IMG/VR virus record: IMGVR_UViG_3300017991_000355
Span: 1 to 27,111 of that record
Strand: one strand, 5' to 3'
DNA length: 27,111 nt
Source of the DNA: a virus
Part shown: piece by piece, positions 1-26,271 of the stretch
Position numbering within the stretch: position 1 is the first letter of the stretch
How the letters are laid out: every line of letters starts with the position of its first letter
Notes under the pieces: model-generated
Databases searched by the model: none
What the model was told of the DNA's origin: nothing
The model's input: the letters and a program-made list of their open reading frames with translations, nothing else
Position numbers and translations under genes: made by a program

Positions 1-116
1 GGTTTAAGGCCCCGGCCAATGGTTTACCGCCTTATGAATACGAGAATGTGTTGAACAAGACGGCAAAGAAGGATATTTCAACAGCGATGGATTTTGATTG
101 GGAGGCAATTGAATGA
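1..116 (+). CDS. C-terminal end of a NeuB/SpsE-like nonulosonate synthase (partial)
   Basis: Only the last 37 or so codons are present; the frame with codons starting at position 3 is open from the window edge to the TGA at 114-116. The visible tail reads KAPANGLPPYEYENVLNKTA and then KKDI...FDWEAIE. This resembles the end of the SAF (antifreeze-like) domain of sialic-acid synthases, which typically has a K-R-P-x-x-G-I-x-P stretch, then G/N-K-x-A-x-x-D-I and a final W-E/D-x-I. Family members condense PEP with an N-acyl-hexosamine or related aldose. The catalytic TIM barrel would lie outside the window, so substrate cannot be judged. The call rests on a short motif match plus the SDR and CMP-sugar synthetase downstream. 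An unrelated C-terminus is possible. It overlaps the next ORF by 4 nt (ATGA). Confidence 0.6.
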   Translation, partial: FKAPANGLPPYEYENVLNKTAKKDISTAMDFDWEAIE

Positions 117-307
117 AACTTTTCGAGTTTCAACAAGATAAAGAAGTTGTCATTGAACAATTTGTAAAATTAATGAGAGAAAATCATTTACAAGATTTTC
201 AAATTGATACCCCCCCCGCAGACTTTGATCAAATATATGGAGACCAAATTATTAAAAAGCAGGGAGCTGATATTTATATAAAATTACATTTGGTGAAAAA
301 AAAATGA
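113..307 (+). CDS. Small hypothetical protein, 64 aa
   Basis: I do not recognise this protein. It starts in an ATGA overlap with the preceding synthase, with GGGAGGC about 7 nt upstream as ribosome binding site, and ends in an ATGA overlap with the SDR gene, so it is translationally coupled on both sides. The product is charged and has no membrane segment or cysteine. The gene is AT-rich yet holds a run of eight C (210-217, coding Thr-Pro-Pro), and its last codons are a run of nine A (296-304) running into the SDR start codon. Both tracts are prone to slippage. Its place between sugar-synthesis genes suggests an accessory role in that cassette or a resident phage gene, but nothing in the sequence shows which. 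Confidence 0.6.
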   Translation: MKLFEFQQDKEVVIEQFVKLMRENHLQDFQIDTPPADFDQIYGDQIIKKQGADIYIKLHLVKKK

Positions 308-996
308 ACCTGTTTGACCTATCAGGCAAGATGGCAATTGTGACAGGTACATCGGGAAAGTTGGGACCGGTGTGGGCAACCACGTTGGTTGAAAATGGCT
401 GCCGTGTTTACTCATATGATTTACCTCATTGGGATGTAACAGATAAAAACCAAATTGCAGATTGGGCTGCTCTCTTTCCTGAAGTAATACCCAATATTAT
501 TATCAACAACGCCGGTATAGATAACCCTCCTGGTTCTGATGCTTCCTTTTTCGGTAATTGCGAAGAGATCCTCCGTGTGAATCTCCAAGGTGCCGTCAAT
601 ATGTGCGAGGTATTCATACCCGACATGATTAAGAATGGTGGGGGTGTAATTGTCAATATCGGCAGTATTCAGGGCAACATAGGTGCCGATTGGCGAAATT
701 ATCCCAAAGGATTTGAGAAACCTGTAGGATATAACCTGTCTAAGGCCGGTCTCATACAGTTATCCCGCAGCATTACCGTACAATATGGGCGCTACAACAT
801 CCGGGCCGTGACAATTGCCTTTGGCCCTTTCTATATGGGACTTGATAAAAAGTTTAAGGATAAATTCCTCAAGAATGTGCCATTAGGCCGGTGTATTTCA
901 AAAGAATCATTACAAACAACACTTTTATACGCCATTTGCTGTCCTGAATTGGCGGGCCAGCAGGTGTTAGTAGATGGAGGCTACACAGCATGGTAG
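304..996 (+). CDS. Short-chain dehydrogenase/reductase, PtmA-like (nonulosonate clusters)
   Basis: A 230-aa NAD(P)-dependent oxidoreductase of the classical SDR fold. The nucleotide-binding motif TGTSGKLG is at residues 14-21, NNAG at 68-71, the catalytic Ser at 121 (NIGS), and the YxxxK pair at Tyr143/Lys147. It ends in the common DGGYTAW tail. The stretch around residues 125-145 (aromatic residues, then KGFEKPVGYNLSKAG) is like SDRs that sit beside sialic/legionaminic-acid genes, for example PtmA of Campylobacter flagellin glycosylation. Length is normal and no catalytic residue is missing. Substrate is not determinable from sequence. It probably reduces or oxidises a sugar intermediate in the cassette. 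The start overlaps the 64-aa ORF by 4 nt and the end overlaps the next small ORF by 7 nt. Confidence 0.88.
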   Translation: MNLFDLSGKMAIVTGTSGKLGPVWATTLVENGCRVYSYDLPHWDVTDKNQIADWAALFPEVIPNIIINNAGIDNPPGSDASFFGNCEEILRVNLQGAVNMCEVFIPDMIKNGGGVIVNIGSIQGNIGADWRNYPKGFEKPVGYNLSKAGLIQLSRSITVQYGRYNIRAVTIAFGPFYMGLDKKFKDKFLKNVPLGRCISKESLQTTLLYAICCPELAGQQVLVDGGYTAW

Positions 997-1196
997 AAAG
1001 TGTAGAAATAATAGAAGCATCTGAAGAGGCCGCTGTGAGATATGGAACTTTATATGGATGTAGTTTTATTAAATTAAAAGATATACATATTGAAGCATTA
1101 AAAAATAACAAAATGTTAGCATGGGATGATGGTGAATACTCAACCTTTGTAATGCATGAAAAAACAAAAATAAGGGAGAAATTAAATGGTAGATGA
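990..1196 (+). CDS. Small hypothetical protein, 68 aa
   Basis: The function is not recognised. The start codon lies inside the last codons of the SDR gene, with GGAGG at 976-980 as a good ribosome binding site, and the end overlaps the next ORF by 11 nt. The product is acidic in its first third (several Glu) with one Cys, and no signal peptide or transmembrane segment is visible. Base composition is more AT-rich than the flanking enzyme genes. The double overlap and good ribosome binding site support it being translated. Confidence 0.6.
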   Translation: MVESVEIIEASEEAAVRYGTLYGCSFIKLKDIHIEALKNNKMLAWDDGEYSTFVMHEKTKIREKLNGR

Positions 1197-1509
1197 AAAC
1201 ATAGAACGGCAGAACTTCAACAATAAGATCCATGAGAAAGTAATGGATTTTATCAAAACCAAGGGCATACCCATTAACCAGCTTACGGTCATCCCTGCCC
1301 TGGAAAAATTGAAATGGGATATAATAAGAATGGTTGATGCCTTTGAAAAGAAAAAGAGCCTACGGATTTATAATGTTGAGGTCAACTATGAACCAGAGTT
1401 CGACAGGGATGGGACTGAGAAACCAAAATATACAACAAGGACGAACTTTATAAATGAGCCTGACAGCACTAATCCCGGCGAGGTCGGGGAGCCAGAGAAT
1501 TCCCAATAA
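1186..1509 (+). CDS. Small hypothetical protein, 107 aa
   Basis: Not recognised. The first 70 residues look alpha-helical and charged; the last 30 are rich in Pro, Asn, Thr and Glu and are probably disordered. GGGAG at 1173-1177 is a reasonable ribosome binding site for the ATG at 1186. The last 56 nt overlap the start of the cytidylyltransferase gene in another frame, a long overlap for this phage, so the disordered tail may simply be what the downstream P-loop region encodes in this frame. It resembles a resident phage gene more than a sugar enzyme, but this is an impression only. Confidence 0.6.
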   Translation: MVDENIERQNFNNKIHEKVMDFIKTKGIPINQLTVIPALEKLKWDIIRMVDAFEKKKSLRIYNVEVNYEPEFDRDGTEKPKYTTRTNFINEPDSTNPGEVGEPENSQ

Positions 1510-2170
1510 GAATATTAAGGAATTGGCCGGGCATCCCCTTATTGCCTATACTATCCAGGCGGCAAAGAATAGTGGTCTCTTTGATAGAATAATTTGCTCT
1601 ACCGATAGCAATAAGATTAAGGAAGCTGCCTTACATTATGGGGCAGATGTGCCTTTTTTCCGAAGAAAAGAGCATAACGATGGCGCACATTTCTGCTGGA
1701 TAATGGATTTTGTGTATCGGTTGGCGCTGGACAGGCAAGGCAATACATTTGTGCTTCTGTTTCCGACTAATCCGTTTAGAGCTGGTGAGACGATAAAAAA
1801 AGCAGTATTGGCATTTGCCGCTGATGAAAAGGCTACATCTTTATTGAGTATGCGGAAAATCACAGAACATCCTGCTAAAATGCGGGTAAAACTTAAAGAA
1901 CATAGGTATATGCTTCCATTTGAAGCAACATCTGAGCGAAATTACAATTTACCAATACAAGAATTAAGACAAGATATATATATTCAGAATGCAAATTTCC
2001 GTATTTTCAATTTCAACACTCTTTTAAAATATGGTGATGAACTCGGCGATAATATTTTAGGCTATCAAACTACAATGCCCGAAGCCTTGGATATTAACGA
2101 TGAATATGATTGGTTTCTTGCTGAAATATTAATTGAGAAGGGGTTGGCGAAACTACCGGAGATACAATGA
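1454..2170 (+). CDS. CMP-nonulosonate (acylneuraminate) cytidylyltransferase, NeuA-like
   Basis: A 238-aa nucleotidyltransferase that would activate a keto-sugar acid with CTP to give a CMP-sugar. The signature IPARSGSQRIPNKNI is at residues 7-21 (the Arg, GS and KN residues bind CTP). It is followed by CSTDS near 48-52, the LFPTNPFR segment at 102-109 (family usual QPTSPLR), and a C-terminal D-I-N-D-E-Y-D-W segment equivalent to the metal-binding region of NeuA/PseF/LegF enzymes. Length is normal. The start is internal to the preceding ORF with only a weak ribosome binding site (AAGGACG), so translation may rely on coupling. It ends in an ATGA overlap with the transketolase gene. Which nonulosonate it activates (Neu5Ac, legionaminic, pseudaminic or a Kdo-like sugar) is not decided. 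Confidence 0.88.
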   Translation: MSLTALIPARSGSQRIPNKNIKELAGHPLIAYTIQAAKNSGLFDRIICSTDSNKIKEAALHYGADVPFFRRKEHNDGAHFCWIMDFVYRLALDRQGNTFVLLFPTNPFRAGETIKKAVLAFAADEKATSLLSMRKITEHPAKMRVKLKEHRYMLPFEATSERNYNLPIQELRQDIYIQNANFRIFNFNTLLKYGDELGDNILGYQTTMPEALDINDEYDWFLAEILIEKGLAKLPEIQ

Positions 2171-3534
2171 GATTCTATTACATCGAAAAATTCAATAAGT
2201 CCTGGTCACTTGAAACTGTAGCAACTGCTCTACGCATAAACACGCTTTACATGATACAAAAGGCGGGCAGTGGGCACATCGGGGCATCTTTGGGTTGTCT
2301 CGATCTTCTCACTTGGCTCTACTGGGAAGGCATGGCGGAAGGCGATAAGTTTATCTTATCAAAAGGCCATGCCGTACCCGCCCTTTACGCTGTCTTGATA
2401 GCAAAAGGTATTATACCATTTGAGCAAATACACAATCTCAGGCGAATTGGCGGCCTCCCCGGGCACCCACATAACAGCATACCGGGCATTGAGGCACATA
2501 CAGGTTCTCTTGCCATGGGGCTCTCTAAAGCCAGAGGCATGGCCATTGCCAACAGGCTAAATGGCAAACAGAATAAAGTGTGGGTAATGGTAAGCGATGG
2601 TGAAATGCAGGAGGGCCAATTTTGGGAATCAATAGGCAATGGACGGCATTACCCTGAATTGCGTCTTATCATTGACTTTAACGATATGCAAACTGATGGG
2701 CCAAACACGAAAAGACGCTTTGATATTGGCGCAGCATTACGAGCTTTTGGCTGGGCAACCCATCAATTACCCGATATTGGGGGGCATGATTTTGGGGCAA
2801 TGCGAGGGATTCCACAACATATTACGCAACCATTGGCTGTCATTGCCCCCACAGTCAAGGCAAAAGGTGTAGAGCGCTTCGATGAGGAAGGTAATGGGTT
2901 ACATTCGGGGATTTTAGAATCTGCGAACTATCGCCGGGCAGTCACGGCGTTTGCAAAGGGCCAAAACTTCAATCTCATTAAATATGATGGCGAATTGCCC
3001 TCAAAGATAGAAGAATCTGATCTAATAACCTATTATGTGCGGGAATTGTATGATTTGATGGTGGAAAACGAGAATATCGTGGTTTTGGATGCTGATTTAA
3101 AGAGCGATCACCGTTTAGAGAAGATAGAACACGAATTTCCTGATAGATTCATTGAATGCGGTATCTCAGAGCAGGATATGGTCTCATGTGCAAGCGGATT
3201 GGCACTTAGCGGCAAGATTCCTGTCTGCCATTCCTTTGCTTGCTTCCTGACGAGCCGTTCAAATGAGCAGATATACAATGCGTGTTGTGAGGGTGATAAG
3301 ATAATTTATTTGGGTTCTGCTGCTGGTTGGATTTCTGCGAAGGGACCGGGGATGTCTCACGAGGCAAGACGAGATAAATGGTTGATGAAGGGAATGCCAA
3401 ATCTTGAGATTATGGAACCATCTACACCAAAAAAGACAGCATTGGCCTTACGGTGGGCGGTGAAAGAAAACCAGAAATCGACATATATCAGGATAAGACA
3501 GAATCCTGCAATAGATGAGATGTTATATGAATAA
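2167..3534 (+). CDS. Transketolase-like ThDP enzyme lacking the C-terminal domain
   Basis: A 455-aa protein with the transketolase pyrophosphate domain (about residues 15-262) joined to the pyrimidine-binding domain (about 280-450). Visible motifs: GSGHIGAS near 35-42, KGHAVPALYA near 66-75, GLPGHP at 96-101, the ThDP/Mg signature SDGEMQEG...DFND (143-173), and the cofactor-activating Glu335 in GISEQD. The chain stops just after the pyrimidine domain, so the third (transketolase_C) domain of about 130 residues is absent. Normal transketolase is about 620-660 aa, or two subunits of about 280 and 310 aa. The two domains needed for ThDP binding are complete. It would transfer a two-carbon ketol unit; a role in making the aldose or keto-sugar feeding the nonulosonate route is inference. 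ATGA overlap upstream; the end overlaps the FkbM gene. Confidence 0.85.
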   Translation: MRFYYIEKFNKSWSLETVATALRINTLYMIQKAGSGHIGASLGCLDLLTWLYWEGMAEGDKFILSKGHAVPALYAVLIAKGIIPFEQIHNLRRIGGLPGHPHNSIPGIEAHTGSLAMGLSKARGMAIANRLNGKQNKVWVMVSDGEMQEGQFWESIGNGRHYPELRLIIDFNDMQTDGPNTKRRFDIGAALRAFGWATHQLPDIGGHDFGAMRGIPQHITQPLAVIAPTVKAKGVERFDEEGNGLHSGILESANYRRAVTAFAKGQNFNLIKYDGELPSKIEESDLITYYVRELYDLMVENENIVVLDADLKSDHRLEKIEHEFPDRFIECGISEQDMVSCASGLALSGKIPVCHSFACFLTSRSNEQIYNACCEGDKIIYLGSAAGWISAKGPGMSHEARRDKWLMKGMPNLEIMEPSTPKKTALALRWAVKENQKSTYIRIRQNPAIDEMLYE

Positions 3535-4237
3535 ACTGCCCTTCAAAATGATTCAAGAAACCCCGATGGAGAAATACCGGGCGGAAACTTTCTGGCTAAA
3601 AGAGCCTGAAACCCTTGTCTGGATAGAATCATTTGCAAAAAACGCAACTTTTTTTGATATAGGCGCAAATATAGGCGTTTATTCCCTCTATGTTGCTCTT
3701 TTTGGCCTCAATATGCGGATATGTGCCTTTGAGCCCTTTGAGGCTAACATGGTTCGCCTGCAAAAGAACACAGAGCTTAATGAGTTCACCAATATCTGGG
3801 TTTACCCCTATGCAATGAGCAATTTCAACGGTGTGAGCAAGTTTTACCTGCCAAAAACGGAAATTGGCACCTCCGGGGGGCAAATTAACACGAAAATTGA
3901 TGAATATGGTGTCGAATTTCAGCCGGAAAAAGAGCAGGTGACACTTGTAACTACTGTAGATGCTTTCATTGAAGAACATACCATATACCCGAACTACCTC
4001 AAAATTGATGTAGACGGGCAGGAATGGGAAGTTATACAGGGCATGGCGAAAATATTAGAGAATATTCACCTAAGAAGTGTGCTTGTTGAGATAAATAATA
4101 ATCGGCAAGAGATATTCAATGCTTTTTGGGCAGCAGGTTTTACTAATGAGAATCTATTCAACACCATGAGAAATCATTCACGAGTACGGCGGGCAGAGGA
4201 AGGCATAAAAGCTGAAAACGTGGTATTTACGAGATGA
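3527..4237 (+). CDS. FkbM-family SAM-dependent methyltransferase
   Basis: Class I methyltransferase, 236 aa from the ATG at 3527; an alternative ATG at 3515 adds four residues. SAM-binding motif I is FDIGANIGVYSLY (residues 43-55), the acidic end of beta2 is in FEPFE (68-72), and the FkbM hallmark KIDVDGQEWEVIQG is at 159-172. Members methylate hydroxyls of sugars or small molecules and are common in glycan clusters. Here it would modify the sugar or the finished glycan. The gene begins inside the last codons of the transketolase gene and ends in an ATGA overlap with the small HTH gene, which links the cassette directly to the phage morphogenesis operon. Confidence 0.88.
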   Translation: MNKLPFKMIQETPMEKYRAETFWLKEPETLVWIESFAKNATFFDIGANIGVYSLYVALFGLNMRICAFEPFEANMVRLQKNTELNEFTNIWVYPYAMSNFNGVSKFYLPKTEIGTSGGQINTKIDEYGVEFQPEKEQVTLVTTVDAFIEEHTIYPNYLKIDVDGQEWEVIQGMAKILENIHLRSVLVEINNNRQEIFNAFWAAGFTNENLFNTMRNHSRVRRAEEGIKAENVVFTR

Positions 4238-4425
4238 ATAAACATCTGGAAACCATTAAAGAGATAACCGATTATCTTAAATGGAGTGAAGATAAACTGT
4301 TTTCTATTATGATGAAACACGATGATTTCCCTGTTAGAAAGATTCAAGGGAGGTGGACTTCGCACACTCAATTATTAGATACCTGGTTTCAAGCTCAAAT
4401 CATGTCAACCCGTAAAACATCCTAA
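4234..4425 (+). CDS. Small HTH-like DNA-binding protein (possible terminase small-subunit-type domain)
   Basis: A 63-aa protein whose first 50 residues fit a MerR/excisionase-type winged HTH: an E-I-T-D-Y-L-K-W-S helix, a second helix, then FPVRKIQGRW (wing) and a final helix with L-L-D-T-W. The same pattern is seen in the N-terminal domain of lambda gpNu1 (terminase small subunit) and in AlpA/Xis proteins. It lies right before the portal gene and right beside a set of direct repeats, one of which overlaps its own stop codon, so it may bind there. No ATPase or oligomerisation domain is visible, so it is either a stand-alone regulator or a minimal small terminase. The fold call is by pattern only. 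ATGA overlap with FkbM upstream. Confidence 0.6.
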   Translation: MNKHLETIKEITDYLKWSEDKLFSIMMKHDDFPVRKIQGRWTSHTQLLDTWFQAQIMSTRKTS

Positions 4426-4487: not shown

Positions 4488-4520
4488 ACCCATAGTATGC
4501 TATTGCTATGGGTATACTAT
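4488..4520 (+). promoter_or_regulatory. Overlapping inverted repeats enclosing the portal start codon
   Basis: ACCCATAG (4488-4495) pairs perfectly with CTATGGGT (4506-4513), which contains the portal ATG. ATAGTAT (4492-4498) pairs perfectly with ATACTAT (4514-4520). The two stems share bases and cannot form fully at once. No Shine-Dalgarno sequence is present upstream of the ATG. This could be a translational switch or an operator; the sequence alone does not tell which. Confidence 0.5.
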
Positions 4521-5746
4521 CTCGCCTTAAAGGTCCTTTCGAAAAACGTGTCTCCATAGATGATCCTCATTACTGGCCGAACATCTTTGGTAAATTGTTC
4601 GGCACCCAAACACTTTCCAATATTGATGTTAATTTCGATAAGGCTACAACCATAACCACTGTTTTTGCCTGCGTTACCCTACTCTCCGAAATTGTGGCCT
4701 CACTTCCCCTTATGGTTTACCGAAAGCGCAAGGACGGCGGCAAGGATGTTGCTGACGGCCATTGGGCATATGAACTGCTGCATGATAAGCCGAATGAATT
4801 TCAGACTAGTTTTGAGCACCGGGAAATGTATATGGGGCATTTGGAGCTCACCGGAAACGCCTTTGATTTCCTTGTGCGTAACGGCAACGGACAGATTATT
4901 GAGATTGTACCCCTAGATCCTGGCAAAGTTCAGGCAACATTTGAAGATAATGGCCCCGGTAAAGTTAAACTCTCATATCAATACAAGCGCGATACTGCCG
5001 ATGAAATAACTATACCTACCAAGGATATTTGGCACAAACGGGGCATGGCTCTCAATCGTTATTTTGGTGTTTCCCGTATAGAAAAGGCCAAGGAAGCTAT
5101 GGCCCTGGCCCTGGCAGCCGAAGGGTATGGCTCTAAATTCTTTTCCAATGCCGCACGGCCCAGCGGTATTCTCAAGGTTGCCGGAAAACTCAATGAAGAT
5201 CAGGAAGCACGTCTCAAGAGATCCTGGCAAGATGCCCAGGGGGGTCTCGAAGGCGCTTTCAAGGTGGCCCTCCTTCAGGGCGATTTGGATTGGAAACCTA
5301 TATCCGAAAACAACGAGAAAAGTCAATTCTTTGAGACCCGTGAATTTCAAGTACAGGAAATAGCCCGTCTTTTTCGAGTACCATCCGTGTTAATCGGTCA
5401 TCCTGATAAAACGATGACCTATGCAAGTGTTGAGCAGCTCGTTCTTGCATTTAAGACCTTCACCATTGCTCCGATAGTGATACGGCTTGAACAATCCATG
5501 AATCATCACATTCTAACCGAAGATGACCGCAAGAAAGGTTTTTTTGTGCAGCACAAGCTGGAAAACTTTGTGAGGGCCGATATTGCGACACGGTATCAGG
5601 CATACGAGATAGCACGCCGGAATATGTGGATGAGTGCGAATGAGATCCGGGCCTTAGAAAACATGGACCCGATTGAGGGAGGCGATGAATTTATAAATCC
5701 CAACACACAATCAATGGGGAGTGGTGAAGATGCCTTATCCGAATGA
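4508..5746 (+). CDS. Phage portal protein, HK97 gp3-like
   Basis: A 412-aa protein of the HK97-type portal family, which forms the dodecameric ring at the packaging vertex. The conserved start of the family is seen at residues 40-70 (A-V/T-x-T-V-F-A-C-V-T-L-L-S-E with the following SLPLMVYRK). It is followed by H-W-A-Y-E-L-L-H-D-K-P-N, TGNAFDFLVRNGNG and IVPLDPGKV. Length is usual (about 390-440). The C-terminal third contains the expected DKTMTYASVEQ clip/crown segment. There is no ribosome binding site and the start lies within inverted repeats. An in-frame TAG at 4493 rules out an upstream ATG start. The end overlaps the protease gene by 17 nt. Confidence 0.93.
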   Translation: MGILSRLKGPFEKRVSIDDPHYWPNIFGKLFGTQTLSNIDVNFDKATTITTVFACVTLLSEIVASLPLMVYRKRKDGGKDVADGHWAYELLHDKPNEFQTSFEHREMYMGHLELTGNAFDFLVRNGNGQIIEIVPLDPGKVQATFEDNGPGKVKLSYQYKRDTADEITIPTKDIWHKRGMALNRYFGVSRIEKAKEAMALALAAEGYGSKFFSNAARPSGILKVAGKLNEDQEARLKRSWQDAQGGLEGAFKVALLQGDLDWKPISENNEKSQFFETREFQVQEIARLFRVPSVLIGHPDKTMTYASVEQLVLAFKTFTIAPIVIRLEQSMNHHILTEDDRKKGFFVQHKLENFVRADIATRYQAYEIARRNMWMSANEIRALENMDPIEGGDEFINPNTQSMGSGEDALSE

Positions 5747-6569
5747 ACATTCTTGTGATTTTGAAGGCACGTACAAGAAATATCGCAGGGTCAATTGTGA
5801 CCAAAAGCATGATGACAAATGCATTGACGTTGTTTACGGCATAAACGAACCGGGAGAATCCAAGGTTTCGTCTTTGCGCTACAAGAAGGATGTGTGGACA
5901 GAGAGCGCAGCGAGAGCACACTGCAAATCACGAAAGGGTAAATTCGAAGCGGCAAGCGAAAGCAAGAACCAAGATAAACATGAGGTACGCACCTTTACCT
6001 TTACCGAGATAGAAACGGAAAAGCGTGATGATGGACAGCGGATGATGATAGGCCATGCCGCGGTATTCGATGAGGTTGGAGATGGTGGCTGGTTCAAGGA
6101 GAAGATAGACCAGGAAGCCTTCAAGAAAACCATCAAGAAAGATGATGTGAGGGCATTGTTCAACCATGACCCCAACCTTATCCTTGGCCGAAATACTGCG
6201 GGCACATTGCAATTGAAAAACGATGATAAGGGCCTTGCCGTTAAAATATACCCGCCTGATACGCAATATGCACGTGACCTTGTGGCCTCAATGGAACGTG
6301 GCGATATTACGCAGATGTCATTTGCTTTTACGGTAGAAAAGCAGGACTGGGAAGAAGAAAAGGGCAAGGTTCCTCTCAGAATACTCAGGGAAGTCAAACT
6401 ATATGATGTTTCGCCGGTCACGTTCCCCTTTTACGAGGGAACGGATGTGGCAGTGAGAAGCTATAACGAATTTTTGGAAGGCAGGGAAACTAATAATGAT
6501 GGTGTGAATCGGAAGGCATTTTATAAGCGCAGATTAGCACTTTTAAGACTACAGGAGGAGATAGAATGA
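5730..6569 (+). CDS. Prohead serine protease, HK97 gp4-like, with N-terminal Cys-containing domain
   Basis: A 279-aa protein. The start is the ATG at 5730, 8 nt after GGGGAG; a GTG at 5721 would add three residues. Residues 1-75 form a separate module beginning MPYPNEHSC with Cys9, Cys23, Cys31 and Cys65, ending RAHCKSRKGKFEAA. Similar modules occur at the front of other phage capsid-maturation proteins. The protease domain (about 85-245) shows the U35 catalytic pattern: His146 in ALFNHDPN, Ser197 in ITQMSFAF, and the LYDVSPVTFPFYEGT segment, in which Asp takes the place of the usual acidic residue. It would cleave the capsid delta domain inside the prohead. ATGA overlap with the capsid gene. 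Confidence 0.92.
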   Translation: MPYPNEHSCDFEGTYKKYRRVNCDQKHDDKCIDVVYGINEPGESKVSSLRYKKDVWTESAARAHCKSRKGKFEAASESKNQDKHEVRTFTFTEIETEKRDDGQRMMIGHAAVFDEVGDGGWFKEKIDQEAFKKTIKKDDVRALFNHDPNLILGRNTAGTLQLKNDDKGLAVKIYPPDTQYARDLVASMERGDITQMSFAFTVEKQDWEEEKGKVPLRILREVKLYDVSPVTFPFYEGTDVAVRSYNEFLEGRETNNDGVNRKAFYKRRLALLRLQEEIE

Positions 6570-7909
6570 AAACATTAGAGCAACTTCGCGAGGAGTTGAA
6601 GACGAAAATAACCCGGATGGAGGAAATTCTCAATGCGGGTGAGGACAAAGAATTCACCGATGAGCAGGAGAAAGAATACGATTCTCTTGAGGCAGAAGTG
6701 AAGGAATTGAAAGAAAAGATCAAGGCCGAAGAGGAAAAAGCGCAAAAGGCGGCAGAGCGGAAAGCGGCACTTGAGAGAGAGAAAGAGGAAATGAAAAAGG
6801 CCGCTAATATCCCCGATTCTGACAATGAGGTTCGGCATGTAGAGCGGGTGCAGGTAAATGAGCCAGAGGAATTCAAGTCTTTGGATGAGTTTCTTGATGT
6901 TGCGCTCAAAAAACTGCTTGGTCGTTCAAGGGTAGAAGATAATAGGCTTGCCAAGTACTATCGGGATAGTTTTAACAATCCCGGTCAGTATGAGACCCGT
7001 GACCAATCGATGGGCGAAGGTACGGCAGGTGGGTACATGATCCCGACGCAATGGGTTCCCGAGTTAAAGCAAGTTGGTATTCAGGATGCCATTGTCAGAC
7101 CCAGGGCTGATGTTATTCCCGCCGGTTCACCCCCGGACGCAGAAGTTACGCTACCGGTAGCCAATCAGGAAACATATCTCAATATGGGTGTCGATGTAGT
7201 GTGGGTTGCTGAAGGTGGCACCAAGACCGAGACCGAGTTTGCCCTGAAGGAACATTCATGGATACCCCATGAGGTGGCCGGTTACATAGTGCTGACTGAC
7301 AAGCTCCTTCGTAACTGGGCCGGTGCGATGGCCTTTGCCAGAACCAGGCTTTCCAAAGCCATAATGATGGCAGAGGATAATGCTTTTCTAACCGGTGACG
7401 GCGTGGCAAAGCCACACGGCATTATGAGCCAACCGGCGCGGATTCTTCAGGTACGAAACACGGCAAATCAGATCAACTGGGCTGACGTCAGAGATATGTA
7501 CTGGCAGTGTTACAAAGAGGGCGGTTCCCCTGTTTGGGTAACAAGTCCATCTTGCTTGCCTCAGTTGATGGGTATTTCAGATCCTAATACTTCAGGTACC
7601 ATGATTTGGCAGCCTTCGGCACGTGAGGGCGAACCAAATAGGCTGCTTGGCCTTCCGTTGCTGTTTAACGTCAGAAGCCCGGCCCTTGGCAGCGAAGGCG
7701 ACTTGATGCTCCTTAATTTCTCCTACTATGTGATTAAGGATGGTTCCGGGCCTTACATTGCCGCTTCACCACACGTTTACTTCACTTCTAATAAGACAAT
7801 CGTGAAGATTTTCTGGAATGTTGACGGCGATAGTTGGCTCAGGGCACCTATACCAATCGAGAATGATGCGGCTAATAACCTGTCACCATTTATCGTTTTG
7901 GCTGCGTAA
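6566..7909 (+). CDS. Major capsid protein, HK97 gp5-like, with N-terminal scaffold (delta) domain
   Basis: A 447-aa HK97-fold capsid protein. Residues 1-90 are an uninterrupted Glu/Lys-rich coiled coil (the delta scaffold, normally removed by the protease encoded just upstream). The mature shell begins near residue 150 with GEGTAGGYMIPTQWVPEL, the usual G-G-Y-x-x-P start of the N-arm. Later hallmarks are VAEGG...ALKEHSWIPHEVAGYIVLTDKLL, LTGDGVAKPHGIM and the C-terminal ASPHVYFTSNKT. The ribosome binding site AGGAGGAG is close to ideal, matching the need for high expression. A GC-rich hairpin follows the stop codon. The exact cleavage site cannot be read from sequence. Confidence 0.95.
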   Translation: MKTLEQLREELKTKITRMEEILNAGEDKEFTDEQEKEYDSLEAEVKELKEKIKAEEEKAQKAAERKAALEREKEEMKKAANIPDSDNEVRHVERVQVNEPEEFKSLDEFLDVALKKLLGRSRVEDNRLAKYYRDSFNNPGQYETRDQSMGEGTAGGYMIPTQWVPELKQVGIQDAIVRPRADVIPAGSPPDAEVTLPVANQETYLNMGVDVVWVAEGGTKTETEFALKEHSWIPHEVAGYIVLTDKLLRNWAGAMAFARTRLSKAIMMAEDNAFLTGDGVAKPHGIMSQPARILQVRNTANQINWADVRDMYWQCYKEGGSPVWVTSPSCLPQLMGISDPNTSGTMIWQPSAREGEPNRLLGLPLLFNVRSPALGSEGDLMLLNFSYYVIKDGSGPYIAASPHVYFTSNKTIVKIFWNVDGDSWLRAPIPIENDAANNLSPFIVLAA

Positions 7910-7914
7910 TTAAC

Positions 7915-7932
7915 TGGGGGCTCCGGCCCCCA
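7915..7932 (+). promoter_or_regulatory. GC-rich hairpin with UCCG tetraloop after the capsid gene
   Basis: TGGGGGC (7915-7921), loop TCCG, GCCCCCA (7926-7932): a perfect 7-bp stem closed by C(UCCG)G, a member of the very stable UNCG tetraloop class. No U-tract follows, so it is not a classical intrinsic terminator. It may protect the 3' end of capsid mRNA or partly reduce read-through. Confidence 0.55.
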
Positions 7933-7957
7933 TTAAGAATATGGAGGATAAATAACA

Positions 7958-8758
7958 ATGAGAACTCACGGAAACTTAATAGAGCATGTGACGGTTAATT
8001 CGGATTTGCTTGTCGCTGCGTCTAATGCAAGTGCAACAAGCATGGCATACGATATGACTGACTACGATAAAATTATTTTTACGGCAGGCATAGCGAGCCA
8101 TGAGGGTGGCAACCACTTAGAGTTTGATGTCAAAGAATCCAGCAATACAACGGGTACTCATTCGACATCAACTTCATTTCCAGGTGCTACCTGTATGGGC
8201 AGTACCAATGCCTCACACATCGAGCAATGTAAGGCGTTTCTGGTTACGCTTGCTACCGATGCCACGGCTTCTACGTTGGCGCTTACGGTCAACAACAAGA
8301 ATTTCAAGTTGACCACAAGCACCTTGCTGCTTCCAGCACAAACGGCTTCGGCGGCATCGGCCCTGTATTTTGGCTCTACCGTTGATTCGACAGATGCTGA
8401 AGGCCTTGAAACTATGTCGAGTGCCCTTGCCTCTATCCTGAATAACACCACTTTTGGAATCGGCAATATCGCCACAGCAACCACCGTTTCCACGGCTGCT
8501 GTCCGGGTTGAATTGCTCGATACCTGCGATACCTACTTTACGGTAGGCACCACAGGTGGAGCTTCGGCTATTATCGCTACAGTCGAGCGGGCTGAGGTAA
8601 CAATGGAAGTACACGCTGAGGATATGAGTACGGGCCAGAAGTGTCTAACCCTCCGGGCTGGTACAGCAACAACGACTATGAATGTGAGCCTTGCAGTTGT
8701 ACGCCAGGGCAGGAGAGGCGGCATTCACAAGCACGGTCCGATCTTCAAGAGCACCTAA
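7958..8758 (+). CDS. Putative virion structural/decoration protein, 266 aa
   Basis: No family recognised. GGAGGA at 7943-7948 gives a good ribosome binding site. The protein is very rich in Thr, Ala and Ser with alternating beta-type segments, has no membrane helix, and carries five cysteines. The final 20 residues are basic (RRGGIHKHGPIFKST). Its place immediately after the major capsid gene, between two mRNA hairpins, and its composition suggest a beta-rich head decoration or head-surface protein made in quantity. A neck or tail role cannot be excluded. Confidence 0.6.
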   Translation: MRTHGNLIEHVTVNSDLLVAASNASATSMAYDMTDYDKIIFTAGIASHEGGNHLEFDVKESSNTTGTHSTSTSFPGATCMGSTNASHIEQCKAFLVTLATDATASTLALTVNNKNFKLTTSTLLLPAQTASAASALYFGSTVDSTDAEGLETMSSALASILNNTTFGIGNIATATTVSTAAVRVELLDTCDTYFTVGTTGGASAIIATVERAEVTMEVHAEDMSTGQKCLTLRAGTATTTMNVSLAVVRQGRRGGIHKHGPIFKST

Positions 8759-8801: not shown

Positions 8802-8819
8802 TACAACTAGGAGGTGCAA

Positions 8820-9128
8820 ATGAATCTATCAGGCTATAAAGTCGGCCCCTTGATTTACTCAAGCGTGACTACTGCTTGGGCAACGGTTTCCTCAGCTTCG
8901 GATGCGGATGGTTTCTTTATCCAAGCACAGACCAGCTCTCTTTTATTCCACATGACTACGCAGACGCCCGTTAATGCAACAGTGGCAGGTGCGGGTATTA
9001 CCCTCAGGGGTACTGCGTATGATTACGTAGAGTTTCTGGGGAACCAACTAGCAAAAAACCTAAAAGTTGCGGCTGAAAACAGCGGTTCTACTGTGCACTG
9101 CTGTGTGCAGTTTTATAGAAAGTATTAA
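8820..9128 (+). CDS. Small putative structural protein, 102 aa
   Basis: The start is taken as the ATG at 8820, 5-8 nt after a strong AGGAGG; an upstream GTG at 8814 lies within the ribosome binding site itself and is unlikely. The protein is beta-rich, with many Ser/Thr/Ala, one Cys-Cys pair near the C-terminus (HCCVQFYRKY) and no membrane segment. Composition resembles the preceding 266-aa protein, which fits a second small head-associated or decoration protein. No family is recognised. Confidence 0.6.
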   Translation: MNLSGYKVGPLIYSSVTTAWATVSSASDADGFFIQAQTSSLLFHMTTQTPVNATVAGAGITLRGTAYDYVEFLGNQLAKNLKVAAENSGSTVHCCVQFYRKY

Positions 9129-9144
9129 CTAATGGGAGGCACAA

Positions 9145-9966
9145 ATGACAGAGAAGGCAAAAGAGAAGGCGGCAGAAAAGGTGCAGGAAGAAGCACCCAA
9201 CCTGCAAAAACAAACCAAACTGGACCCCTATAAAAAGGGTGACAAACCGAAGCTGGCCATTGTCGGCTGTTCCGACAGTAAAGACCAGGCCCCATTTGAT
9301 AACCAGGATTATGAGATTTGGGGTGTCAATAATCTTTTCTACCATATACCCCGTTATGATCGCTGGTTTGAGATCCACCATATTACGTTTGATGGTAAGG
9401 ATTTCTTGAGAAGGGGCAGTAAGGACTTCCGGGGCCAAGCAGTAACGAATTACATTGCCGATTTGGGCAAGATGAAATGTCCCGTGTATATGCAAAAACA
9501 ATGGCCGCAGGTTCCCATGAGTACGCAATATCCCGTGAAGAAAATCATTGATATGTTCGGGGATTACTTCACGAATACCATCTCATGGATGACAGCTCTT
9601 GGTATTTGGATGGGATTTGAGGAAATCGGTATTTGGGGTGTGGATATGGCCGTTGATACCGAGTATCACTGGCAAAGACCAAGCTGTGAGTATTTTATCG
9701 GTTGGTTTAACGGTATGTCTAAAGCATTAGGCCGCGATACAAAGATATACATTCCGCCTACAGCAGACCTAATGAAGGCACGGTATCTATACGGTTTTCA
9801 GGAGCCGGAAGAAATTGCATGGCGGCAGAAGATAGCGGCAACTAAGAAGCACATGGGCCAGAAGATGGAGAAAGCTGCACAAGCCGAGCAGCAACAGCAT
9901 GATTTACGGATGCAATACCTCGGCGGCATTCAGGCCGTTAGAGAGATTGACAAAATATGGAAGTGA
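9145..9966 (+). CDS. Conserved phage Rossmann-like protein of unknown function
   Basis: A 273-aa protein. After a charged, Lys/Glu-rich 35-residue leader comes a beta-strand with LAIVGCSDSK (about 37-46). DYEIWGVNNLF and PRYDRWFEIHH follow, then a later beta-strand-type stretch EIGIWGVDM with a D-T-E-Y-H-W-Q-R-P-S-C-E-Y segment. This resembles a nucleotide-binding-like alpha/beta domain found in hypothetical phage proteins whose biochemical role is unknown to me. The C-terminal 60 residues are a coiled coil rich in Gln, Lys and Glu. GGGAGGC gives a good ribosome binding site. An alpha/beta domain within a head gene cluster could act on nucleotides or sugars, but I do not assign a reaction. 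Confidence 0.6.
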   Translation: MTEKAKEKAAEKVQEEAPNLQKQTKLDPYKKGDKPKLAIVGCSDSKDQAPFDNQDYEIWGVNNLFYHIPRYDRWFEIHHITFDGKDFLRRGSKDFRGQAVTNYIADLGKMKCPVYMQKQWPQVPMSTQYPVKKIIDMFGDYFTNTISWMTALGIWMGFEEIGIWGVDMAVDTEYHWQRPSCEYFIGWFNGMSKALGRDTKIYIPPTADLMKARYLYGFQEPEEIAWRQKIAATKKHMGQKMEKAAQAEQQQHDLRMQYLGGIQAVREIDKIWK

Positions 9967-9976
9967 GGTGGAAGGC

Positions 9977-10219
9977 ATGAAACGCTGGAGAATAACGAAA
10001 GAAATTAAATATAGCGGTATTCGGGTAACACCGGGGGCCGTTATCGAGACTGATGATGTGGCATGGATAGGGCGATATAAAGCGTTAAACGCCATTGAGC
10101 CCTTTGAGCAAAAGCCACACCCTGAAACTAAGGTTGCGGAAACCAATGTTGAAATGGCTGTAAGACCGTCTCCTGCAAGGAGAGGAAGGAAAAGAAAGGC
10201 TGTCAATGCCAATCATTAG
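9977..10219 (+). CDS. Small basic hypothetical protein, 80 aa
   Basis: The start is the ATG at 9977, directly after GAGGTGGAAGG; an ATG further upstream at 9899 lies wholly inside the preceding gene without a ribosome binding site. The first 50 residues look like a small beta-barrel (KYSGIRVTPGAVIETDDVAW), the last 20 are strongly basic (SPARRGRKRKAVNANH). The end overlaps the fibre gene start by 14 nt. Likely a small head or neck accessory protein; no family recognised. Confidence 0.6.
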   Translation: MKRWRITKEIKYSGIRVTPGAVIETDDVAWIGRYKALNAIEPFEQKPHPETKVAETNVEMAVRPSPARRGRKRKAVNANH

Positions 10220-12620
10220 AGAAAAAACGACCTCAAAGGTTATATGTGGGCCATTTCTTACCACGGGTGCATCCGCTCTTGCTACCGGCATAACACTTTC
10301 AGCCGCAGATCAGGCCAATGTTATAAAGCATGGCACGACGGCGGTTGTGAGTGTGACAGCAGCAACGTGGTCTACAATAACAAGTGCTGCTGGTTTTTAT
10401 GCTTTGGAAATTACCACGGGCATGAGCGACACGCCGGGACGTTTAGATTTAACTGTTCGAGATGATGATGCTTGTATGCCTTACACGAAAACATTCATGG
10501 TGGTAGGGCAGCAAGTTTATGATCAGATGTGGGGTGCCTCTGCTGCTGCTTATCCCGGTGTCAATGTCATGCAAATCAACTCTCAGGGATCGGCGGCAAC
10601 AGCATTGGAGGGCCATGCATCAAGTTTCATTGCCGGGATTACTTCGATTGCCAGTGAAACAACGGCAATGGCTGCTGTATTGGCTTCGGTGCATACCGAA
10701 ACATCAGCGATCCACAGCGAAACGACATTGATACATGGTGAAACCTCGGCTATCCATGCTGAGACCACACAAATCCATGCCGAGACAACAATTATTGCGG
10801 CAGATACCACGGCAATCAAGGCGGAACAGGCTTCAGCAGCTACGCGCCTTGAATCACTTCAGGCCGACACGACAGTTATGAAACCTCAGTTGACTTCGAT
10901 AGCTGCAGAGACGACGAATATAGCTGCTAATGTTAGCTGTCTCCTTGGCGAGACTTCGGCCATAATTGGTGAGCAAGCCAGTCTGTCAAGCAAATTGGAT
11001 GCCATAAAGGATGATACCACAAATATCAAAGTAACACTGTCGTCAATCGCTGGGGAAACGTCAAATATTAAAGCTCAGGTTACATCAATATCAAGCAGGG
11101 TAGAGGAACTACAGGCCGATACAACGGCTATGAAGCCACAGCTATCGAGCATTGATTTAAAGCTCGATTCAACTCTCTCATCGGCTTTGACTTCGGCTTT
11201 GGCTACCGTTGTAAATGATCTTACCAGTATCAAGGGGCGGATTAGTTCGGTTGCACATGACGTGTGGTCAGTAACATCTCTCTCCACTGATTTCAGTGAT
11301 ACGGCAATGGCCGGGCATAAACTATATGAGGCGGCTACTTTTGGTGCCGGTGGTGCGGATTCGACGGCAATAGCAAGAGCTGTGTGGGAACAATCCTCAC
11401 TTTCAACGGATTTTTCTACTGCCCAGGCTGGATATAAGCTATTTGAATCGGCTAGTTTTGGCGCTGGTGGTGCCGACTCAACCGCTATCGCACGGGCAGT
11501 TTGGGAGCAAAGTTCAATTGATAGTGCTGACTATACAACGGCTCAGGCTGGAGGCTTACTTGCCCGTATATCCTCGGAAACCAGTTCTTTGAAATCAGGG
11601 CAGGCTTCTATTGCTACACGGGTTGAATCATTACAAGACGATACAACTGCAATGAAGCCGATCCTATCAAGTATCCACACTGAGACGTCAGCTATGAAGC
11701 CTGTATTATCATCCGTACATACTGAGACATCGGGGCTGGTTGGTGCGGTAGCTTCGGTGGCCGGGGAAACAAGTCATCTCAAAGCTATGGTAGGGGCATC
11801 CAATGCGGCGACCAATGCGACATCTATGTCAGGACGGCTGAACCTCATTCACAAGGAAGCTACGGGAATTTCAGTAATCGTTTCCAGCATTGCTGGCGAG
11901 ACCTCCGCTAATAAGGCCATGTTGACATCCATATCCTCACGGGTAGAAGAGTTGCAAGCGGACACTACCGCCATGAAGCCGATATTAAGCAGTATCCATA
12001 CTGAGACTTCCGGCATGGTCGGGGAACTTTCAAGTATTCACGCCGAAACATCAGCTCTCAAAGTAGATAGTACAGCAATAAAATTGTCATTGGCGAGTAT
12101 AGCTTCAGAGACCTCATATATCAAAGGTAAGGTTAGCTCAATTGCCAATGAGACCTCAGCGCTCAAGGTTACATTATCAAGTGTGGATAACAAACTTGAT
12201 TCAACGCTTTCCTCTGCCCTTACCAGTGCATTAGCTACAGTCAGTAATGACCTTAGCAGTATGAAAGCAAAATTGAGCAGTATAGATGATTATCTTAGCA
12301 GCAGTATCACGAATCAATTAACCTCGATTGACAGCAAGTTGGATAGCACACTCTCATCAGCTTTAACAAGTGCCCTGGCTACTGTCAGCAATGTAATTTC
12401 TACTTTGTCTAATACCGCCCTTATGGATAGCACGGTTGAAGGCGATTATAAGTTACGGGATATTTTAAGGCTTCAATCTGCCGCTTTATTTGGGAGAACA
12501 ACAGGCGGAGGTACAACGCAAATTAAATTTAGAGATTTGGCAGATACAAAAGATAGGATTGTGGCGGAAGTAACAACAGTTGTAGGCGATAGGAGCAGCA
12601 TAACACTCGATGCTAGTTAA
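10206..12620 (+). CDS. Long heptad-repeat phage fibre protein, 804 aa
   Basis: Three parts are visible. Residues 1-115 are a beta-rich N-terminal domain ending MVVGQQVYDQMWG, of a type often found at the base of phage head or tail fibres. Residues about 140-770 are almost continuous seven-residue repeats (AIHAETT, SIAGETS, LQADTT patterns with Ile/Leu at one position), which indicates a long trimeric coiled coil. Two tandem copies of about 37 residues containing FGAGGADSTAIARAVWEQSS interrupt it near 355-455. LDSTLSSALTSALATV occurs three times. The C-terminal 50 residues (TQIKFRDLADTKDRI...ITLDAS) form a compact cap also common in such fibres. A position between head genes and connectors suggests a head or neck fibre. 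Confidence 0.8.
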   Translation: MPIIREKTTSKVICGPFLTTGASALATGITLSAADQANVIKHGTTAVVSVTAATWSTITSAAGFYALEITTGMSDTPGRLDLTVRDDDACMPYTKTFMVVGQQVYDQMWGASAAAYPGVNVMQINSQGSAATALEGHASSFIAGITSIASETTAMAAVLASVHTETSAIHSETTLIHGETSAIHAETTQIHAETTIIAADTTAIKAEQASAATRLESLQADTTVMKPQLTSIAAETTNIAANVSCLLGETSAIIGEQASLSSKLDAIKDDTTNIKVTLSSIAGETSNIKAQVTSISSRVEELQADTTAMKPQLSSIDLKLDSTLSSALTSALATVVNDLTSIKGRISSVAHDVWSVTSLSTDFSDTAMAGHKLYEAATFGAGGADSTAIARAVWEQSSLSTDFSTAQAGYKLFESASFGAGGADSTAIARAVWEQSSIDSADYTTAQAGGLLARISSETSSLKSGQASIATRVESLQDDTTAMKPILSSIHTETSAMKPVLSSVHTETSGLVGAVASVAGETSHLKAMVGASNAATNATSMSGRLNLIHKEATGISVIVSSIAGETSANKAMLTSISSRVEELQADTTAMKPILSSIHTETSGMVGELSSIHAETSALKVDSTAIKLSLASIASETSYIKGKVSSIANETSALKVTLSSVDNKLDSTLSSALTSALATVSNDLSSMKAKLSSIDDYLSSSITNQLTSIDSKLDSTLSSALTSALATVSNVISTLSNTALMDSTVEGDYKLRDILRLQSAALFGRTTGGGTTQIKFRDLADTKDRIVAEVTTVVGDRSSITLDAS

Positions 12621-18904: not shown

Positions 18905-19689
18905 GCAATATACTTTTTCTCTATAATAATCTTTTGGATACCTCAACACTGACTGAAAGTTCTGAGGCAAGTGGTTTTCCTGCCGAAAACGTGCAGCATG
19001 AATTTAGAACAAAGGTATGGCGCACGGAAGGGGCGACGGCGGGAACAGCCAATCTTGACATTGATTTGGGTTCCGCCCAGGAGGTAACTTGTGTTGCACT
19101 TGCTGATTATACATGGACTTCCGCCCCCGGAACGTTTGACCTTGAATTTGATAATGATTCAGGCTATGGCAGTATTGACGCAACCGAATCTCTCACCTGG
19201 TCCGCCAACCCCACGGCAAACGGAAACAACGGCATTATTGTAAAGACTTTCACGGGCCATACATATCGCTACTTGAGATTGAATGTTGTCTATTCACCGG
19301 GAGGCACACCCACCGATTGGGATTTGGGCCGGATATTTGTAGGCACCTATTTTGAACCAAGCGATAATTACTTGCTTGCCGAGTTTCAGCAGAACTTTAT
19401 TGACCTCTCACGAAGCCAAAGGACACCGGGTGGTTCTATTCATGTTGACCAAATAGACCCTATCAGGGAAGTTGAGTTCTCTTTTATCGCCCAAACACAA
19501 GCACAATGGGAATCATTTCAGGGAGTAATAAACGAAGTGGGCATGGCTGATCCGCTTTTTGTTGCCTTTGATTACGATAACGAGCCGAATGAAATGACCA
19601 TGTATGGACGGTTTACCAGCCTACCCAACATGAGGCGGGTTGATGTGCCCTATTTTCGATTAGGATTCACATTTGAGGAAGCCAAATAA
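18901..19689 (+). CDS. Putative distal tail/minor tail protein with a galactose-binding-like domain
   Basis: A 262-aa protein right after the tape measure gene (ATGA overlap), the slot of the distal tail protein. The middle part (ANLDIDLGSAQEVTCVALAD, then TYRYLRLNVVYSPGG..W.LGRIFVG) has the strand pattern of a discoidin-like/galactose-binding fold, seen in several tail-tip proteins. The C-terminus (VEFSFIAQTQAQWESFQGVI, VDVPYFRLGFTFEE) is beta-rich, as in tube-like domains. Assignment is by position and pattern, not by a family signature. It overlaps the next gene by 1 nt. Confidence 0.65.
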   Translation: MSNILFLYNNLLDTSTLTESSEASGFPAENVQHEFRTKVWRTEGATAGTANLDIDLGSAQEVTCVALADYTWTSAPGTFDLEFDNDSGYGSIDATESLTWSANPTANGNNGIIVKTFTGHTYRYLRLNVVYSPGGTPTDWDLGRIFVGTYFEPSDNYLLAEFQQNFIDLSRSQRTPGGSIHVDQIDPIREVEFSFIAQTQAQWESFQGVINEVGMADPLFVAFDYDNEPNEMTMYGRFTSLPNMRRVDVPYFRLGFTFEEAK

Positions 19690-22896: not shown

Positions 22897-23023
22897 CCTG
22901 TTTGATATCATACTTGAAATACGTGCTCACGTCAAGTGTTATGTTAAGATTTGGGGACTCATCGGCGGGGCCATACCACCTGTGGCAATCTTAATTTTCC
23001 TACTCGTAAAAGGTACGTTTTAA
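22832..23023 (+). CDS. Small membrane protein, holin- or XhlA-like
   Basis: A 63-aa protein with AAAGGA about 9 nt before the ATG. Residues 1-37 form an amphipathic charged helix (ETFDRLESVDDKLAILFDII) and residues about 38-59 one transmembrane helix (WGLIGGAIPPVAILIFLLV) followed by Lys. The layout resembles haemolysin XhlA-type and small holin-like phage proteins, but no endolysin is present nearby, so a lysis role is not proven. The 5' end overlaps the lipoprotein gene antisense by about 65 nt and contains its promoter. Its TAA overlaps the spike ATG (TAATG). Confidence 0.65.
   Translation: MPNGISKETFDRLESVDDKLAILFDIILEIRAHVKCYVKIWGLIGGAIPPVAILIFLLVKGTF
22907..22935 (-). promoter_or_regulatory. 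Sigma70-type promoter for the leftward lipoprotein gene
   Basis: On the minus strand, TTGACG (22935-22930) is followed by a 17-bp spacer and TATGAT (22912-22907): five of six matches in each box at the optimal spacing. A purine at 22899 is the likely start site, three bases before the ATG at 22896, implying a leaderless or nearly leaderless transcript. The promoter lies inside the coding sequence of the opposite-strand membrane protein. Confidence 0.72.
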
Positions 23024-25047: not shown

Positions 25048-25198
25048 GGTGTCAGTTAGGTGCCACCCCCCTCTGAAAGCCCTATAAAATATACCCTGCT
25101 CACGGGTTCAAATCCCGTCGTGCCTACCAGTTTTATCGTGTAAATTCACTATCTTATTATTTTGAGTTCCGGTGCTAGCGGGTGCCATTCGGGTGCCA
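25048..25198. repeat. Five GGTGYYA repeats flanking the attachment core (candidate arm-type sites)
   Basis: GGTGTCA 25048-25054 and GGTGCCA 25059-25065 lie left of the tRNA core; GGTGCTA 25171-25177, GGTGCCA 25181-25187 and GGTGCCA 25192-25198 lie right of it. All read in the same direction. Within each group the starts are 10 or 11 bp apart, one helical turn. The right-hand copies are also integrase codons. Arrangement on both sides of the core is as expected for integrase arm-binding sites. Confidence 0.5.
25102..25129 (+). other. 3' end of a tRNA gene: attachment core (attP)
   Basis: T-arm ACGGG-TTCAAAT-CCCGT (25102-25118) is followed by the 3' acceptor strand CGTGCCT (25119-25125), discriminator A and CCA (25127-25129). 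No matching 5' acceptor AGGCACG or D/anticodon arms precede it, so it is a fragment, not a functional tRNA. Such fragments mark where a phage integrates and rebuilds a host tRNA 3' end. The amino-acid identity is not determinable. Confidence 0.82.
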
Positions 25199-26211: not shown

Positions 26212-26271
26212 CGTCAGCCCCCCCTTAAATTCAGGGGCGAGCATAGCATAGTTTTGCGGGGTGGGGGTCAT

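Follow-up and report, generated by a model that had tools for sequence, protein, structure and literature searches.

Phages exploit host surface sugars, and mycobacteriophages glycosylate their own particles. According to the 2023 work of Freeman and colleagues, mycobacteriophage capsid and tail proteins reportedly bear glycans, and the phage genomes are said to encode glycosyltransferases; we know of no de novo nonulosonate synthesis in these phages. In Campylobacter, PtmA and PtmB place a short-chain dehydrogenase/reductase (SDR) beside a cytidine monophosphate (CMP)-nonulosonate synthetase, and the sialyltransferases Cst-I and Cst-II, which founded glycosyltransferase family 42 (GT42), act on lipooligosaccharide. 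Passages of PMC12619734 and PMC12691614 cite Freeman et al. 2023 for mycobacteriophage virion glycosylation. In the Caulobacter flagellin system, and likewise in Maf systems elsewhere, a self-assembling surface protein is O-glycosylated in the cytoplasm from a CMP-nonulosonate (PMC7591256). Among viruses, the Acinetobacter prophage enzymes EpaA and EpaB modify capsular pseudaminic acid made by the host, and some marine viruses carry lipopolysaccharide (LPS)-type genes including NeuA (PMC12053666; PMC5332604, respectively). The virus contig described here, IMG/VR record IMGVR_UViG_3300017991_000355 (27,111 bases, together termed the window), carries a NeuB-SDR-NeuA cassette with a transketolase-like enzyme (TKT) and an FkbM-family methyltransferase directly before its portal and capsid genes, and, beyond the capsid gene, an orphan protein that we label GTx.

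As a predicted pathway, synthesis and transfer of a nonulosonate are well supported, and on balance we favor a phage-encoded pathway for the manufacture, activation, and attachment of a non-standard nonulosonate, with a virion protein as the most likely target. NeuB would condense phosphoenolpyruvate with an aldose, probably not N-acetylmannosamine (ManNAc), and NeuA would activate the product as a CMP-sugar. The SDR, the TKT, which lacks a C-terminal domain, and FkbM could tailor the sugar or its precursor by redox chemistry, two-carbon transfer, and methylation, respectively. GTx would then move the CMP-linked sugar to an acceptor, most likely a virion protein that is rich in Ser/Thr and encoded in the same operon, much as Maf and FlmG act on flagellin in the cytoplasm. 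The benefit might be, for example, particle protection or altered adsorption.

The cassette and its relatives

The contig begins inside neuB, of which only the 3ʹ end remains (1..116, open frame 3-113, on the + strand, as are all cassette and head genes through GTx): 37 codons and a stop, corresponding to the C-terminus of the SAF domain. A sequence-only reading of this DNA had taken the partial gene for a NeuB, and both profile searches and relatives bear this out. Of 18,950 NCBIfam models, the two that rank highest for the 37-residue fragment are NeuB_NnaB (E 0.022, profile positions 300-325 of 329) and PseI (E 0.1, positions 300-324 of 327), weak matches that fall at the correct position; a phmmer search of the same residues against the PDB returned chance matches only. 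The fragment also aligns to the C-termini of complete NeuBs from related loci (numbered with the prefix L), including L012/L091. Its score against the same end of the NeuB from L177, the closest relative, is 99, compared to a maximum of 43 in 1000 shuffles. While the window holds the C-terminus only, complete NeuBs of relatives match the NeuB TIM-barrel domain, PF03102, with E values of 6e-78, 6e-66, and 2e-72, and by sequence comparison with these relatives the edge gene is settled as a NeuB. Phage NeuBs of about 250-305 aa, apparently without a SAF domain, occur in L001 (7913-8725), L003 (8377-9231), and L066 (7321-8079).

The remaining cassette enzymes are complete. The SDR-family oxidoreductase (304..996; PF00106, adh_short, 1.8e-21), placed as PtmA is beside NeuA/PtmB, is 40-63% identical to other cassette SDRs, and its catalytic Tyr143/Lys147, Asn93, and Ser121 are invariant among relatives; a tblastn search of plasmids with the SDR gave no match. 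The NeuA/PseF-like CMP-nonulosonate cytidylyltransferase (1454..2170; PF02348, CTP_transf_3, 4.4e-25; TIGR03584, 1.3e-36; PDB NeuA, 2e-20) has the N-terminal ARxGSxxxPxKN motif (PARSGSQRIPNKN). Its best NCBIfam model is PseF, but the match lies below the equivalog cut-off (126 vs 205.7 bits), and its substrate is therefore left unassigned. The TKT (2167..3534; PF00456, Transketolase_N, 3e-21; PF02779, Transket_pyr, 2e-23) consists of thiamine pyrophosphate-binding and pyrimidine domains, and the three cassette TKTs that were aligned do not vary at the catalytic Glu (E335) or at metal-binding D144 and N172. By Pfam, the C-terminal domain PF02780 is absent from the TKTs of the window, L108, and L109; the remaining cassette TKTs stop at the same place, and all are about 420-455 aa with similar C-termini. 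The FkbM-family methyltransferase (3515..4237; TIGR01444, fkbM_fam, 1.9e-26; PF05050, 1.8e-13) completes the set; in L177 the corresponding gene is split over two frames (7302-8056). The five genes named in the sequence-only reading are thus all present and co-oriented, with reading frames intact in the four complete ones, and rather than unlinked fragments with disrupted catalytic sites they form an array with intact catalytic motifs that is syntenic across lineages.

Relatives were found by portal-based and TKT-based scans of 2.9 million virus contigs with alignment queries; single-protein queries (the window TKT and portal against viral contigs, and the TKT against genomes) found none. Eight virus contigs from about six distinct lineages bear this TKT (L177-L183 and L108), and all eight have the order NeuB-SDR-NeuA-TKT; FkbM and portal follow in seven, and the eighth ends inside the TKT. 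Up to the limits of the individual contigs, the full array is TerL-NeuB-SDR-NeuA-TKT-FkbM-portal-major capsid protein (MCP), in some cases followed by GTx; in these uncultured tailed phages the cassette thus lies between DNA-packaging and capsid genes. TerL directly precedes NeuB wherever a TKT contig extends that far; in the window this position lies beyond the edge. The array also occurs without the TKT in five virus contigs (L012/L091, L096, L098, L100, and L104) and in L092, which was binned as a Bacteroidetes metagenome-assembled genome. L012/L091, for example, reads TerS, TerL, NeuB (351 aa), SDR, NeuA, FkbM, portal, protease, and capsid protein. Because TKT-less cassettes exist, the TKT is optional rather than core, and none of 49 virus records carrying GTx contains its pyrimidine domain. 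The cassette is one module adjoining the portal gene, as originally described, and the same arrangement recurs across phages. Host genes acquired by chance, or an assembly error, might leave the slightly lower GC content seen in the cassette (41.6% vs 45.0%), but about six distinct phage lineages share both the array and its location; their TKTs are 40-86% identical, and frames and motifs are intact. Accidental host DNA was rejected on this synteny and has a negligible probability.

GTx and its linkage to NeuA and NeuB

GTx (9145..9966), a name applied here to the window protein and its homologues alike, is 273 aa long, was not mentioned in the sequence-only reading, and is unassigned in Pfam, PHROG, and NCBIfam. 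An AlphaFold2 model built from an alignment with 54 relatives has a predicted local distance difference test score (pLDDT) of 85.7; a model from three sequences was unusable (pLDDT 46.5). In a Foldseek search of the PDB, ranks 1-15 are all Cst-I/Cst-II sialyltransferases of GT42 (E 4.9e-5, probability 1.0). VIA-align superimposes the model on Cst with a Z of 11.3 over 159 residues (3.2 A, about 11% identity), followed by a Maf flagellin glycosyltransferase (Z 9.7) and an MptE-like pterin kinase (Z 9.4); Z scores of 9-11 at about 11% identity denote a common fold, not an activity. Within Pfam, CST-I (PF06002) is the family matched by most GTx relatives, although the matches are weak (7 of 54 relatives; lowest E 0.013), and the window protein itself has no such match. 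Conserved residues of GTx are N144, G165, E173, Y174, Q177, and R178. Its alignment with 5mu5 covers residues 261-497, the middle of a chain of 632 residues, and GTx is without the flanking domains of Maf. One IMG/VR scan gave 159 confirmed matches to the family, whose closest relatives in a virus structure library are unnamed proteins. From its modeled fold, GTx could be a CMP-nonulosonate transferase. A second, shorter copy of this GT42-like orphan lies beside FkbM in the cassettes of L108 (3735-4409), L177 (6626-7351), L180 (9044-9739), L182 (5051-5725), and L026 (4487-5056) and is absent from the window.

The association of GTx with nonulosonate genes is evident by its neighbors in other phages. 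In L004, the first phage reached by the GTx query, the homologue abuts NeuA, NeuB, and NeuC-like genes, and L001, reached by a NeuA query, has a GTx homologue with the same neighbors. At Pfam cut-offs, NeuB is present in 28 and NeuA in 29 of the 49 virus records carrying GTx, compared to 6 of 49 each in a portal-similarity control. The six control contigs are the same for both genes, and all have this cassette; four carry GTx, and the other two (L096 and L098) end before its position. Selection of the 49 records followed an initial inspection and was based chiefly on length, and an unbiased count over all 80 loci is more trustworthy: NeuA or NeuB lies nearby in 27 of 80 GTx loci vs 3 of 66 GTx-less portal loci (p = 8e-6, an optimistic value because the contigs are related). 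In each of the three exceptions (L096, L098, and L102), the contig stops within the capsid gene or a short way past it. Moreover, 12 loci on several unrelated backbones have NeuA immediately next to GTx, 47 of 48 gene pairs are on the same strand, and 16 of 30 GTx clusters formed at 50% identity include NeuA or NeuB. In L003, a large phage rich in sugar genes, a protein with a 'VGPSPHLLNT...' start resembling glycosyltransferase family 29 (7038-7763) lies beside NeuB/NeuA and is possibly another type of sialyltransferase.

The sugar and its probable destination

The NeuB of Neisseria meningitidis uses a SAF-domain residue, Arg314, to hold the ManNAc N-acetyl group in position, and its Arg314Ala form is inactive (PMC6795526). 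At this alignment position the window has Ala and every cassette NeuB read has Ser, Thr, or Ala, whereas ordinary NeuBs in the same alignment retain Arg. Because the cassette NeuBs are without this Arg, we infer an acceptor aldose other than ManNAc; with Arg314 missing from the sequence, these NeuBs are not claimed as ManNAc-using synthases of N-acetylneuraminic acid (Neu5Ac), and the non-standard aldose envisaged in the sequence-only reading becomes plausible. The sugar is probably not ordinary Neu5Ac, given NeuBs without the ManNAc-binding Arg and TKTs without a C-terminal domain, and the TKT or SDR may supply or tailor the aldose. A more specific and tentative proposal is that an Arg314-less NeuB subfamily, with an SDR and a C-domain-less TKT, allows a lineage of tailed phages to make a 3-deoxy-ulosonic acid that lacks the usual N-acyl group and has not been described before, and that a new GT42-fold glycosyltransferase family might attach to the phages' own capsid surface.

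The combination of NeuB/NeuA and a transketolase had been called unusual, which is accurate for phages, but a NeuB-SDR-TKT trio also occurs on a plasmid of Streptomyces sp. NBC_01237 (L173, 5700-14300). There, NeuB, SDR, and a full-length transketolase have aminotransferase, RmlD-like, and HAD genes as neighbors, and the Streptomyces NeuB has Ser at the Arg314 position. Genes resembling 4-hydroxyphenylpyruvate dioxygenase lie upstream of the trio, and the region looks like a natural-product cluster. Matches to the TKT in the phage collection that were opened proved to be split two-gene transketolases, the one annotated example lying among bacterial metabolism genes, and they were given no weight as evidence that phages carry the gene.

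Because a candidate transferase is encoded at 9145-9966, decoration rather than mere manufacture is the role most favored for the cassette. Between the capsid gene and GTx lies a gene for a 266-aa protein with 26% Ser and Thr (7958..8758), compared to about 10% in the portal and capsid proteins. A Ser/Thr-rich protein precedes GTx in 12 of 27 portal/MCP loci with GTx and in none of 42 without it, and, since it is present only in GTx-bearing loci, it is the first acceptor candidate. A 104-aa protein directly before GTx (8814..9128; no family match, 20% Ser and Thr) is a candidate decoration protein or acceptor as well. Gene order, as read from sequence, favors co-expression of the cassette with the capsid genes, and the late, stoichiometric expression suggested in the sequence-only reading would fit both gene order and overlap. 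Promoter and terminator scans found fewer sites than in shuffles and hence permit no statement on cassette-specific regulation.

Several observations weigh against virion decoration by GTx. Ser/Thr richness is also found in the major tail protein (25%), the GTx-bearing loci of the portal set are close kin whose counts are not independent, and some GTx phages (L103 and L105) have no NeuA or NeuB at the site. An integrase-like gene lies on the contig, which makes lysogenic conversion of the host surface possible, and the fold of GTx is common to MptE-like pterin kinases. GTx might accordingly be unrelated to the cassette, an MptE-like pyrophosphotransferase or an inactive Rossmann protein, for instance, with the cassette only feeding or altering the host nonulosonate pool. 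The Z of 9.4 for MptE-like HPPK, weak matches of 5 of 54 relatives to PF01973, and 53 of 80 GTx loci having no NeuA/NeuB within the locus are consistent with such a role. However, Cst-type sialyltransferases outrank MptE in Foldseek, VIA-align, and the Pfam tallies, and NeuA adjoins GTx on several backbones, so we regard an unrelated GTx as unlikely.

The main rival to a virion target is modification of the host surface, in which GTx or host transferases would add the CMP-sugar to LPS or capsule, causing serotype change or a superinfection block during lysogeny or late infection. The GT42 founders Cst-I and Cst-II act on lipooligosaccharide, and the integrase-like gene (PF00589, E 0.0011) is in keeping with lysogeny. 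There are also precedents in the prophage genes epaA/epaB, which alter host nonulosonates (PMC12053666), and in marine viruses with LPS-type genes including NeuA (PMC5332604). Nevertheless, the cassette and GTx are embedded in a packaging and capsid operon across relatives, the Ser/Thr-rich protein co-occurs with GTx, and family scans recognized no O-antigen polymerase, flippase, or lipid-linked glycosyltransferase in the window. Remodeling of the host surface is therefore a serious possibility to which we give clearly less credence than to virion decoration.

Phage sugar nucleotides are also used for DNA modification, and the nonulosonate could in principle modify phage DNA instead of protein. 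The fold of GTx is of the CMP-sialic acid type, we know of no CMP-nonulosonate modification of DNA, and no base-modification gene was recognized in the window, an incomplete genome. A DNA target is thus very improbable.

Within the cassette, open reading frames of 64 aa (113..307, overlapping the NeuB stop by 4 nt), 68 aa (990..1196), and 107 aa (1186..1509) have no family match and no homologues among the loci compared. The chain of overlapping genes described in the sequence-only reading is present, but not all overlaps fall within its 4-11 nt: the 107-aa frame overlaps NeuA by 56 nt and the TKT overlaps FkbM by 20 nt. A 63-aa protein (4234..4425), which likewise precedes the portal gene in L177, leads into the head operon of portal protein (4508..5746; PF04860, 4.7e-101), prohead protease (5721..6569; phrog_80, 4.4e-59), and MCP (6566..7909; phrog_10, 4.1e-51). 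Connector and tail genes lie downstream of the MCP. Between GTx and the connector genes, an 804-aa protein with 28% Ser and Thr and repeated 'ETSxIxxE'-type units (10206-12620) is possibly a fiber and has a related sequence in L011. The tail region includes a protein with weak F5/F8 type C (carbohydrate-binding-like) similarity (18901-19689; E 4e-5), and a right-handed beta-helix protein (22951-24819; PF13229, 5e-19) is a likely tailspike. The tyrosine-recombinase-like integrase (25108-26271, - strand) suggests a temperate element.

Comparison with known systems

Among 50,697 records of a phage collection, tblastn with a cassette NeuB gave three matches, one of them a bacterial contig, and the GTx family appeared in one record, Microcystis phage Mvi-Yong1342-1. 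This is the single cultured phage in which a GTx homologue was found, and its gene immediately precedes the terminase genes. This rarity of NeuB relatives in the collection is why cultured phages hid the cassette. The open-licence literature yielded no description of a phage-borne NeuB-NeuA-transferase set; what could be searched covers mycobacteriophage virion glycosylation and isolated phage sugar genes, not a complete nonulosonate pathway with a transferase. A phage-borne pathway leading all the way to an activated nonulosonate, with a transferase among the capsid genes, would if true be a new viral control of surface chemistry. It would also name an orphan virus protein family, on the strength of a modeled fold, as probable CMP-nonulosonate transferases, and testable predictions follow for the altered NeuB and the C-domain-less TKT.

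Each described system shares part of this arrangement. Like PtmA-PtmB, the cassette sets an SDR beside a CMP-nonulosonate synthetase, with a transketolase added. EpaA and EpaB are likewise phage-encoded enzymes acting on a nonulosonic acid, but their prophage lacks NeuB and NeuA and has no head-operon transferase. Mycobacteriophages with glycosylated virions also reportedly encode glycosyltransferases, although the enzymes are different. Cst-I and Cst-II of C. jejuni share the predicted GTx fold and are partners of NeuA/NeuB genes; however, GTx is only 11% identical to them, and the window protein has no Pfam CST-I match. In the Maf and FlmG systems of, for example, Caulobacter, Aeromonas, and Campylobacter, NeuB and NeuA likewise make a cytoplasmic CMP-nonulosonate and a dedicated transferase attaches it to Ser/Thr of a surface protein; Maf also has a fold in common with GTx (Z 9.7). 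Unlike these systems, the genes here are phage-borne among packaging and capsid genes, and GTx is a small orphan without the Maf flanking domains.

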